A DNA stretch of 64,000 nt, from NCBI RefSeq assembly GCF_016865365.1, contig NZ_AP024469.1, forward strand, positions 2,634,501 to 2,698,500, given 5' to 3'. The number at the start of each line of letters is the position of its first letter. The first letter of the stretch is position 1. The position numbers and the translations under genes were made by a program. Source of the DNA: Geobacter sp. SVR. Lineage in GTDB: Bacteria > Desulfobacterota > Desulfuromonadia > Geobacterales > Pseudopelobacteraceae. Below are positions 17,356 to 20,680 of this stretch, piece by piece. The notes beneath the pieces were generated by a model that was not told the origin of the DNA, searched no databases, and worked only from the letters and a program-made list of their open reading frames with translations.

Positions 17356-18834
17356 TCAGCGCATGTCATACAAAACGACCGATTCGTTGAAATGCCTGCT
17401 TCTGATAAAGGCCATCTCCAGGTCGCAGGCCTTGACGTCGAGAGCGGTCATGGCAAGAATGCGCAGCCCCCCATCGATGGTGTTCTCAATGATGCTGAGC
17501 GGTCCGGAATGCTCATCGAGTCTCTGTTTCGGCGTCATGCCAAGGTGTACGAAGGTGTTGTCGTACATGATCCCCTTGACGTTGAGCTTCGGATTGGCTG
17601 CCTGTTCCGAGCGGTTGCGGATGGCAATCAATCGTTCCGACAGTGCCATTGCCCCCTTGCGCAGCTCTTCCAGCTCCAGGAACGAACAGGCCTGTTTCAT
17701 GCGAGCGCTGTTTTCCTCCTGCTCGTGAAGCAGCCGTTCGAACTCGGCCATTTCCCGGTAGTCGATGCCTGCATTGAAGGTGGTCTTGACCGATGCCGGC
17801 GATCCTGCCTTCTTGGTCTCAATCCCTCCCAGGGCGGTATAGCAGCCCCCCGCAACAGCCCCCCGGTTCACCATGATTTTTCCGAGGGTGCTGACCTGAC
17901 AATTATGGAGTTCCACATCGATGACCAGGTCCCCGGCGCACTCGACAGTGCAATCGTGTATGAAATTGGCCGTAATCGACCCGCCGCACCGGATGGAGCC
18001 CTTCTCCTGCCCGGCCATCCCGCAGAAGGCGATGTCCCCTTCACTGACGATGGAGCAGGCACCGATATTGCCGTTGACGCGCAGTCCTTTGATGGCGGTG
18101 ATGTTGAAGCCATCGAGCACATCCCCTCGCACCTCGACGAAACCGTTGAACACGATCGAGCCGACCCGGAAATCCACGTCACCCGCAACGACGTACTCCT
18201 GGGCAACTGAAATTTCACCCAGAGCAAGACATACCCGGCCGGCAATTTCGGCGATGAGCAGGCTGCCCTCTTCGCTGGTGCGAATGCCGTTGCCCACCTT
18301 GAGATCCAGCGCTTTTCCGGGCTGGGATGCAAGCATCTCCCCCGTCACCCCTTTGCCAGGTGTTCCGGGCTCGGGCGGGATGATGCGCGCAATCTCGTCA
18401 CCGGGCATGACATTAATGAAGGTCTGAACATTATGGAGATCGATGTTGGCGGAATCGTCACTTTCATGGGTATCGACCACCGACGGTTGAGCCAGGTAGG
18501 AGAGCCAGCCGTTTTCACCCTTCTCCGGCGTCACCCCTGCGGCTATCAGCACCATGGAAAGCGTACGCCCGGCGCCAGCCTCGGCCAGAAATTCCTCCAG
18601 CGCTTCAGGAATGACCCCTTCGGTAATGCCCGCTTCGGTGAGATATCCCAGCAGGGCATCCCTGGTAATACCGCTGTCAGGCCCCTGGGGTACGTAACTG
18701 CAGCGGCACTCCAGTCTGCTGCCTGAAATCCAGACATACAGGCGATAGCCGGAGCCCTGGAATTCCCTGCCCGCAATGCTCCTCCGCAGGGCTTCATCCG
18801 TATCTGAAAAGGTAGCGGAGAATGGAGTATCCAT
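17356..18834 (-). CDS. FapA-family (DUF342) polymer-forming protein
   Basis: The 492-residue protein has the DUF342 layout: an N-terminal domain, a central right-handed beta-helix (about residues 165-340, with repeats such as VVAGDVDFRVGSIVFNG and GNIGACSIVSEGDI), then a coiled-coil (around MAEFERLLHEQEENSARMK) and a short C-terminal beta part. Such proteins occur in bacteria with signalling or motility links; the role is unclear. The start at 18834 follows AAGGAG. It may be co-transcribed with the permease gene downstream. Confidence 0.85.
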   Translation of the reverse strand: MDTPFSATFSDTDEALRRSIAGREFQGSGYRLYVWISGSRLECRCSYVPQGPDSGITRDALLGYLTEAGITEGVIPEALEEFLAEAGAGRTLSMVLIAAGVTPEKGENGWLSYLAQPSVVDTHESDDSANIDLHNVQTFINVMPGDEIARIIPPEPGTPGKGVTGEMLASQPGKALDLKVGNGIRTSEEGSLLIAEIAGRVCLALGEISVAQEYVVAGDVDFRVGSIVFNGFVEVRGDVLDGFNITAIKGLRVNGNIGACSIVSEGDIAFCGMAGQEKGSIRCGGSITANFIHDCTVECAGDLVIDVELHNCQVSTLGKIMVNRGAVAGGCYTALGGIETKKAGSPASVKTTFNAGIDYREMAEFERLLHEQEENSARMKQACSFLELEELRKGAMALSERLIAIRNRSEQAANPKLNVKGIMYDNTFVHLGMTPKQRLDEHSGPLSIIENTIDGGLRILAMTALDVKACDLEMAFIRSRHFNESVVLYDMR

Positions 18835-19017
18835 GAAAGCTCCTTGTGCGGATCTTTGACACGATTTAATTAGCACCAACGACAGCAAAGAAGCAAATTT
18901 TTTCGGTCTCAGGCCGGGAGAAACCGAAGCAGCTCCCCAGCCGGGAAAATATATCCACCCACCTCAAATCTAGCTTGACTTGGTCCCATGTTTCAGTATA
19001 TAGAAAGGGACTCGAAT

Positions 19018-19102: not shown

Positions 19103-19131
19103 AAAGCCACGTCAAACGACGTGGCTTTTTT
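19103..19131 (+). terminator. Terminator after tRNA-His
   Basis: AAAGCCACGTC (19103-19113) pairs with GACGTGGCTTT (19118-19128), then T residues. The stem could also serve the minus-strand gene ending at 19143. Confidence 0.9.
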
Positions 19132-19142
19132 CGTTTCAGGAC

Positions 19143-20525
19143 CTAGCCCACCTCGGCATAGTCCCGGATGCGGAACTCGGCTCCCAGCGAGTCGGCCAGC
19201 CTGCGGCAGGCCTCGATGTCGATTCCCGGCACAGTCACGGCGCTGGCCACCACGGTCGGAATGTGTTGTTGCGCCTGGCGAATGAAATCGCACATTCCTT
19301 CGAACCCGGCCTGGCCGAACGGGGTGTTGCACAAACGTTCGTAGGTCTCCGCGTCAGGCGCATTGAGGCTGACGGAGATGCTATCCACCAGCCCCGCCAG
19401 CTCCGGCAGGATATTGCGGCCATGCACCAGATTGGCTTGTCCGTCGGTATTGATTCGAACGCGATAGCCGCGCTGCTTCATGGCAGCGGCCACCTGCTTG
19501 ACCAGATCGAGCCGGATCAGCGACTCGCCGTAACCGCAGAAAACCACCTCGTCGATCCCCTGCGGCTCCCCTATGGCCGCCATCACCTCCTCGTAGGAAG
19601 GTTCCCCGTCCAGCAGCAGGTTGTGCCCCTTGACGGTGAAATCATCGAATTTTGCGCAGAAGGAGCAGCGGTTGGAACAGCGGTTGGTGATGTTCAGGTA
19701 GAGCGAATTCCTGATCATGTAGGCGATCTTGGTGGACTGGTCCCACAGCCGGATGCCGAACAGGTCGCGCACATTCTTGGTGGTGATGCGGGCCACGTCG
19801 GACAGGGTCAGCCCCTTCACCTCGGCCACCCGTTCCGCTGCCAGACGCACGTGGGCCGGTTCGTTGCGCTTGCCGCGATGCGGGACCGGCGACAGGTAGG
19901 GGCAGTCGGTTTCCACCAGCATGCGATCGATGCTGGTGGCCCGCACCACCTCCCGCAGCGCGTCGTTGGCGGGATAGGTGACGGTGCCGGGGATGGAAAT
20001 GTAAAACCCCATTGCAATCGCCTCGGCCGCCATGGCGGTATCACCCGAAAAGCAGTGCAGCACCCCGCTGTTCACCCTCTCCTCCTTGAGACAGGCCAGC
20101 ACCTGCTCATGAGCATCGCGGTCGTGAACGATGACCGGCTTGTCCAGCTCGCGTGCCAGGCGCAGCAGGCGGCGGAAGACCGTCTCCTGCTCGTCGCGGG
20201 GGGAGCGGTCCCGGAAAAAATCCAGACCGATCTCGCCGATGGCCACCACTTTGGGGCTGGAGAGCGCCAGCTCCCGGATCTCGTCGTAGCACTTTTCGGT
20301 CACCCCGGCGGCATCATGGGGGTGAATACCGACCGCAGCGTACAGGTGGGGATATTTGTCTGCCAGGGCCACCGACTCGCGGCTCGACTCGATATCCGTT
20401 CCGACCACCAGCATGGCAGCCACTCCGGCATCGGAGGCGCGCTGCAGCATCTGCTCGAAATCATCGGCATAATCGCGGTAATAGACATGGGTATGTGAAT
20501 CAATCAGGGTAATGGTGTCGTTCAT
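19143..20525 (-). CDS. TatD-type hydrolase fused to a radical SAM domain
   Basis: Residues 1-258 are a TatD metal-dependent hydrolase: DSHTHVYY, AVGIHPHD, GEIGLDF, VIVHDRDA, HCFSGD and ETDCPYLSP are the metal and active-site motifs. Residues 270-460 are a radical SAM domain with C283-x3-C287-x2-C290 and VVFCGYGES near 328. These match two families usually encoded by neighbouring genes (TatD and the TatD-linked rSAM protein). Here they are one chain with no stop or frame change between them. The reaction is unknown. Confidence 0.88.
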   Translation of the reverse strand: MNDTITLIDSHTHVYYRDYADDFEQMLQRASDAGVAAMLVVGTDIESSRESVALADKYPHLYAAVGIHPHDAAGVTEKCYDEIRELALSSPKVVAIGEIGLDFFRDRSPRDEQETVFRRLLRLARELDKPVIVHDRDAHEQVLACLKEERVNSGVLHCFSGDTAMAAEAIAMGFYISIPGTVTYPANDALREVVRATSIDRMLVETDCPYLSPVPHRGKRNEPAHVRLAAERVAEVKGLTLSDVARITTKNVRDLFGIRLWDQSTKIAYMIRNSLYLNITNRCSNRCSFCAKFDDFTVKGHNLLLDGEPSYEEVMAAIGEPQGIDEVVFCGYGESLIRLDLVKQVAAAMKQRGYRVRINTDGQANLVHGRNILPELAGLVDSISVSLNAPDAETYERLCNTPFGQAGFEGMCDFIRQAQQHIPTVVASAVTVPGIDIEACRRLADSLGAEFRIRDYAEVG

Positions 20526-20559
20526 GTGGGTACCTATCTATAAATTCTCTTCAAATCTG

Positions 20560-20660
20560 CCACGGAGGCACGGAGAAAACCAGGGACTGGGGACTGGGGA
20601 CCGGGGACCGGTAAATTCAAAACAGCTTGAGCCGCTCTCACTTTCTCTGTGTCTCTGTGG
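20560..20660. repeat. Intergenic inverted repeat with short tandem core
   Basis: CCACGGAGGCACGGAGAAA (20560-20578) faces TTTCTCTGTGTCTCTGTGG (20642-20660), an imperfect inverted repeat of 19-base arms. Between them lies a 7-base tandem array of GGGGACT/GGGGACC units (about 20584-20612). The whole sits in the 155-base gap between truD and the TatD fusion. It resembles repeats seen in other Geobacter spacers. Confidence 0.6.
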
Positions 20661-20680
20661 TAGAAGTTTTGAAGTTTCAA

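Follow-up and report, generated by a model that had tools for sequence, protein, structure and literature searches.

On the minus strand of the window, by which we mean the whole 64,000-nucleotide stretch of DNA analysed here, positions 19143-20525 hold an open reading frame of 460 aa with an ATG start, in which a TatD hydrolase domain is followed by a radical SAM domain. The plus-strand frame at the same coordinates encodes unrelated sequence. The original prediction had recognised TatD motifs and a radical SAM motif in this one frame, to which we add only the strand, and had placed the latter motif at C283-x3-C287-x2-C290, positions that prove exact. The features of the gene are as follows.

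19143..20525, minus strand: TatD–radical SAM fusion protein, 460 aa (profile families, and a frame conserved in other genomes)
19755..20507, minus strand: TatD hydrolase domain, aa 7-257 (PF01026, TIGR00010; fold match to 6l25_A, rmsd 0.9)
20487..20495, minus strand: HxH metal motif H11-x-H13 of Group II TatD (invariant in 46 fused proteins; group as defined in PMC10085689)
19752..19844, minus strand: last TatD helices, aa 228-258, a candidate docking surface with D243 and R246 (fused-specific conservation; putative interface placement)
19731..19754, minus strand: short linker, aa 258-265 (near-constant spacing in later-fetched frames)
19158..19730, minus strand: radical SAM domain, aa 266-456 (TIGR04038, PF04055, structure model)
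19656..19679, minus strand: C283-x3-C287-x2-C290, the [4Fe-4S] cluster motif (invariant in 46 proteins)
19146..19151, minus strand: C-terminal V459-G460, directly before the stop codon (G is the final residue in all 125 distinct fused proteins that are complete)
19103..19128, minus strand: terminator-like hairpin 3' of the gene, common to tRNA-His on the plus strand (by consensus match only)

Both halves are assigned by curated profile searches. The TatD part matches PF01026 over aa 8-257 (294.5 bits, cut-off 27) and TIGR00010 over aa 7-257 (283.9 bits, cut-off 206), and it carries the Group II HxH motif together with the metal-ligand residue set; against NF007745, the E. coli TatD equivalog, it scores 190.7 bits where 395 are needed. 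The radical SAM part matches TIGR04038 over aa 266-456, spanning 191 of the 192 profile positions (287.2 bits, cut-off 129.7), and exceeds the gathering score of PF04055 (60.5 bits vs 29.5). It thus shows the features that mark membership of TIGR04038, namely the score, the CxxxCxxC motif and a TatD domain in the same frame. One chain carries a complete Group II TatD and a minimal radical SAM core without an added cluster domain. In the source genome, a single contig of 4.7 Mb, the window frame is the only place over the TIGR04038 cut-off, and two of the three TatD places lie outside the fusion gene.

Upstream of the fusion gene, on the same strand, lie trmL and truD. Its 3' end abuts a tRNA-His gene on the opposite strand, with the terminator-like hairpin between them, and a FapA (flagellar assembly protein A) domain protein encoded on the minus strand at 17356-18888 adjoins the tRNA-His gene. 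The stretch between truD and the fusion gene (20549-20676) contains GGGGACT/GGGGACC words, noted by eye, and a 15-nt inverted repeat that is 80% complementary; a repeat search of this stretch gave no direct repeat of at least 10. It may be a dispersed intergenic element.

Distribution and origin of the fusion

The fusion was followed through three overlapping samples (relatives, class and phylum), each of which takes in the window's own genome. Among the relatives, the radical SAM domain is present in 56 of the 57 genomes. Of its 57 places, 56 fall within frames of 459 aa or more; the one shorter frame, of 255 aa, belongs to a second copy in genome G053. The class sample has the domain in 188 of 195 genomes, 186 of them with a match over the cut-off, and the frame reaches at least 459 aa for all among the matches listed. 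In the phylum sample, 58 of 297 genomes have it; the frame is 442 aa or longer at 57 places, and a single one, of 105 aa, begins six bases from a contig end. Of the loci fetched, 141 gave a radical SAM hit, and in 137 of these both domains share one frame; the set includes duplicates (e.g., L001 and L008). The fusion is a real two-part enzyme recurring across a bacterial class, and not an error. The two ways in which the original prediction had been expected to fail are excluded by the independent genomes: a base error joining two genes, and chance occurrence without conserved linkage.

The original prediction had also held that the two families are usually neighbours and had proposed a profile search for fused and separate forms. 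In the loci fetched here the forms are overwhelmingly fused, and none of the 141 has TatD and radical SAM as separate neighbouring genes; the idea of usual adjacency thus finds no counterpart here and goes back only to the NCBIfam family name. The four non-fused loci comprise one that has lost most of its TatD (L103) and three TIGR04100 relatives, found by tblastn on a plasmid and on two faecal "phage" contigs that carry no annotation; a TatD query gave no frame of at least 80 aa in these four loci (E up to 1e-10). Carriage of the fusion by phages or plasmids was considered and set aside: these three relatives all score over the TIGR04100 cut-off, viral contigs yielded no relative of the window's radical SAM domain, and an alignment query gave three weak matches there, at 29-33% identity.

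The surroundings of the three TIGR04100 genes differ. One (L148:3408-5603) lies directly after genes for a TIGR04002 membrane protein and a pyridoxamine kinase, which hints at a vitamin B6-like substrate for this sister family, and another (L149:4130-5594) directly after nadC (nicotinate-nucleotide diphosphorylase); the neighbourhood of the third (L147) is unlike either.

A contig scan returned 181 relatives, and the best 80 of the 181 are for the most part labelled Geobacter relatives or unclassified Deltaproteobacteria. Methanosarcina acetivorans, included as a control genome, has a match over the TIGR04038 cut-off, so the domain reaches archaea. A contig titled Halioglobus sp. (L108) holds a Geobacter-like fusion whose radical SAM half is 68% identical; the contig is probably misplaced. 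One genome of the same family without the fusion (G025, 99% complete) lacks both the radical SAM half and the metG-type TatD, its only TatD match grouping with paralogues. Either G025 can do without the gene or its assembly has missed it.

In each of 14 phylum genomes chosen for lacking the radical SAM domain, a solo TatD, 37-50% identical, is kept. In a TatD tree built from 36 fused and 22 solo rows the two kinds are mixed, with 11 changes, at least two of them forced by well-supported branches. A single origin was considered, and the tree does not choose between one gain with losses and several gains. Larger fusions, suggested by frames of 840-976 aa, were set aside: in L142, the one locus in which such a frame was read, the added stretch overlaps the end of a distinct metG (named by eye) that lies in another frame.

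The second copy in G053, which we matched to L103 by coordinates, keeps about the last 30 TatD residues alone (L103:5833-6594) and represents a natural radical SAM-only form of TIGR04038; its protein, without most of TatD, still ends in EVG. Two nitrogenase-component-like genes (Oxidored_nitro) follow downstream. Just upstream, L103:3300-5477 encodes a 725-aa Cas12u1/Cas12f-like protein (PADLOC, 285.7 and 282.5 bits); no CRISPR-like repeat array was found in L103 2900-6200.

Beyond the window, 97 fusion loci have flanking sequence. Frames found upstream on the same strand include the DNA polymerase III delta subunit (25), PSP1 (25) and thymidylate kinase (tmk, 23), and a metG cluster has 27 frames, 23 of them upstream on the same strand, with a median gap of 27 nt over the cluster; for each of these four, the family name was checked on a single member. 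Upstream in 10 loci lies a cluster judged truD-like by eye, and a TPR-repeat protein is encoded upstream on the same strand in 19, with a median gap of -4 to the fusion frame (e.g., L071:4368-5198). Given the recurrence of metG and its fellow upstream genes, the TatD of the fusion looks like the metG-linked TatD. Small ORFs (20-81 aa) within 450 nt offered no clear candidate for a conserved peptide substrate. Downstream, their clusters reach at most 5 loci, and the four large clusters upstream cover 21, 20, 16 and 14. Three of these four were rejected as the tails of longer TPR, metG and truD-like frames (54 of 55 members); the 16-locus cluster, of whose 16 members 3 fall within a longer frame, resembles a shadow frame of the TPR gene.

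Conserved sites, the junction and the C terminus

Both catalytic residue sets are intact. An alignment of 46 fused proteins shows no variation at the cluster cysteines C283, C287 and C290 or at the TatD residues H11, H13, E98, H134, H157 and D207, the last six being metal ligands in the TatD family. The HxH motif places the window TatD in Group II, as that group is defined in PMC10085689. A further cysteine outside the cluster motif, C330, is invariant even when the TIGR04100 relatives are included.

The junction between the domains is also constrained. In 20 of 23 later-fetched frames the linker spacing is within one residue of that in the window, and the remaining three are 4, 5 and 12 residues longer. 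A comparison of 36 fused with 14 solo TatDs, for which 8 of the 22 solo rows were dropped as paralogue type, reveals fused-specific positions that gather in aa 239-258, where 5 of the 7 positions with a frequency gap of at least 0.5 are found (hypergeometric p 3e-5; regional mean reached in 0 of 500 label shuffles). Since this region was chosen after the scores had been seen and the fused rows are related to one another, the clustering is a pointer and not proof. Within it, all 36 fused TatDs have D243 and none of the 14 solo ones does (one of the 14 is gapped there), and R246 is present in 36 of 36 vs 4 of 14. Across 46 proteins the distances of the two halves are correlated (r = 0.85). Conservation is stronger in the radical SAM half, with a mean pairwise difference of 0.34 vs 0.43 for the TatD half. 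Both halves are acidic (median pI about 5.7).

The fusion model (pLDDT 93.9, pTM 0.83) appears to score higher than would be expected for two loosely tethered domains; modelled alone, the radical SAM half reaches 92.2 and 0.88. As modelled, this second half is a bare radical SAM core. Structural alignment with VIA-align finds its nearest folds in the PFL-activating enzyme (Z 16.3, rmsd 3.1 over 181 aligned residues) and in NifB (Z 16.2, rmsd 2.9 over 178), with viperin, TYW1 and RlmN at Z about 14-15. Foldseek ranks BlsE and the PFL-activating enzyme at the top, and a sequence profile against solved structures ranks MoaA and RlmN there, weakly (E 0.0003-0.0004).

At the C terminus, every one of the 125 distinct complete fused proteins ends in glycine, 124 as VG and one as IG; a 126th, whose C terminus is cut by its contig, was left out of this count. 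The VG tail lies beyond the TIGR04038 match, whose last residue is aa 456 (profile position 191 of 192), and the three TIGR04100 relatives have other endings. Among control proteins encoded by neighbouring genes, for the most part identified by eye, the terminal residue is more variable in MetG (the commonest one in 10 of 27), HolB (10/25), PSP1 (9/25) and Tmk (4/23), and fairly fixed in TPR (13/19 G), TruD (8/10 F) and BioB (11/11 H), the latter three being drawn from narrower sets; in the same comparison the fusion's own cluster ends in G in 98 of 99 rows. The last ten residues have a mean pLDDT of 77 in the fusion model.

Possible functions and comparison with known systems

TatD enzymes are widespread, and their cellular role is still debated. 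We tentatively favour, as a possibility held with considerable reserve, a bifunctional housekeeping enzyme of the Geobacter-like class, in which a TatD phosphodiesterase and a radical SAM domain docked on it would act on the same nucleic acid or nucleotide, perhaps under the control of the terminal glycine. The radical SAM domain would dock on the last TatD helices, which would hold both catalytic sites in fixed relation and direct them at the same nucleic acid or nucleotide substrate. The TatD site would cut a phosphodiester, by 3'-end trimming or by cleavage at abasic sites (both known activities of bacterial TatDs), and the radical SAM site would cleave SAM, its 5'-deoxyadenosyl radical acting, ahead of the cut or following it, on a residue that is damaged or modified. 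The carboxylate of the C-terminal glycine may fold into the radical site and gate SAM cleavage until substrate is bound, much as a C-terminal glycine reportedly gates radical initiation in MoaA (Hover and Yokoyama 2015); drawn by analogy, this gating is the least certain part of the proposal.

A nucleic acid or nucleotide is preferred as the substrate because E. coli TatD, YcfH and, weakly, YjjV have 3'-exonuclease and AP endonuclease activity, as described in PMC10085689, and E. coli TatD acts on ssDNA and RNA according to PMC4176340. The intact, conserved site sets and the near-fixed linker spacing argue for joint work of the two halves, perhaps in the joint reaction on RNA, DNA or a peptide that the original prediction suggested. 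Further points consistent with the favoured reading are the long frames, the confident fusion model, the fused-specific signal in aa 239-258, the co-varying distances, the more conserved radical SAM half, the terminal glycine, and the placing of MoaA and RlmN as nearest, weakly, by profile. Against it, the acidic halves do not speak for nucleic-acid binding, and the TIGR04100 genes, none of them beside TatD in three loci and two of them beside vitamin genes, fit a small-molecule substrate better. The analogy with MoaA is weakened by its poor match (E 0.0003), by the structurally nearer PFL-activating enzyme, NifB, viperin and others, and by the number of terminal glycines, two in MoaA and one here. 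The modest pLDDT of the tail and the fixed last residues of the BioB, TruD and TPR controls count against gating, and the manner in which the region was picked, among related rows, against the docking surface.

We regard as quite improbable the proposal that the protein is a machine with which anaerobes repair a nucleic acid or nucleotide in two steps, where substrate bound by TatD would pull the C-terminal glycine into the radical site and thereby permit SAM cleavage. If it were true, hydrolysis and radical chemistry would be coupled within one polypeptide, a combination for which we know of no characterised enzyme.

The genomic neighbourhood bears on an enzyme linked to tRNA, which we think doubtful. 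Here the TatD domain would act on a tRNA 3' end or aminoacyl ester and the radical SAM half would modify or repair the same tRNA. The TatD is of the metG-near kind, with metG upstream in 23 frames, truD and trmL precede the gene in the window, a truD-like cluster does so in 10 loci, and the nearest solved relatives include RlmN, a methylase of rRNA and tRNA. Also in its favour, DTD3 is a TatD-family D-aminoacyl-tRNA deacylase; a literature search returned no paper with both DTD3 and TatD. The truD context is, however, limited to part of the family, and the recurrence of tmk, the DNA polymerase III delta subunit and PSP1 points to a general housekeeping neighbourhood with nothing specific for tRNA.

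It is also possible, if unlikely, that the substrate is a small molecule, with the radical SAM half making or breaking a vitamin- or nucleotide-like metabolite and TatD hydrolysing its product or precursor. The settings of the TIGR04100 genes beside TIGR04002 and pyridoxamine kinase and beside nadC agree with this, as do the acidic domains and the fold-near viperin, QueE and MoaA, which act on nucleotides or similar small molecules. Yet TIGR04100 is a different family by its curated cut-off, the third locus has another context, and the TatD enzymes with measured activity in PMC10085689 are nucleases.

Rather unlikely, in our judgement, is a joining for co-expression only, in which a standard TatD nuclease and a radical SAM enzyme unrelated to it would have no common substrate. 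G053 does keep a second copy without most of TatD, and the solo TatDs in all 14 chosen genomes without the radical SAM domain imply that TatD works alone. The near-fixed linker, the co-varying distances and the fused-specific conservation at the TatD end speak against such a loose arrangement, as does the lack of separate neighbouring genes in any fetched locus.

We consider it very unlikely that the radical SAM half modifies a protein, either TatD itself or a partner, in the manner of the PFL-activating enzyme. This enzyme and NifB are the nearest folds, but such a fold match is common to many radical SAM families, no conserved partner emerges beyond the housekeeping genes and the TPR-repeat protein of 19 loci, and no clear peptide ORF was found. 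A sequencing error that joined two genes has a negligible probability, with no point found in its support and the same fusion present, free of internal stops, in many independent assemblies.

Returning to the favoured bifunctional enzyme, the link between TatD and radical SAM is already catalogued in NCBIfam as TIGR04038; our additions are the spread of the fused form over the class, the constant C-terminal glycine and a TatD helix with fused-specific residues. A literature search on TatD and radical SAM, with most subscription journals outside its coverage, returned no title on the fusion; papers listed as containing both terms deal, by title, with genome annotation, biofilm mutants and a stress profile. 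The class-wide weld offers a handle on a shared substrate, and the terminal glycine and the candidate docking helix allow single-residue tests of function.

The TatD half closely resembles S. aureus TatD (6l25_A; 44% identity, rmsd 0.9 over 256 columns), and with this and E. coli YcfH, both Group II TatD nucleases, it has the HxH motif and metal-ligand set in common. The fusion differs from these nucleases in its added radical SAM domain and in D243 and, less strictly, R246, which mark fused forms. The radical SAM half belongs to TIGR04038 (tatD_link_rSAM, "TatD family nuclease-associated radical SAM protein"), typed as a subfamily_domain, whose name states no reaction and whose profile match excludes the invariant VG tail of the fused proteins. 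TIGR04100 (rSAM_pair_X) is the same minimal radical SAM domain, its three loci being 33-45% identical to the query, but the window protein scores 184.2 bits against it, under the cut-off of 262, and neither the VKGH motif nor R272 nor the VG tail of the fusion occurs in the three relatives. MoaA (GTP 3',8-cyclase) is the top solved relative by profile, weakly (E 0.00031), and the window protein reaches 33.8 of the 284.05 bits needed for the MoaA family TIGR02666. Unlike MoaA, the fusion has no second cluster domain and ends in a single glycine.
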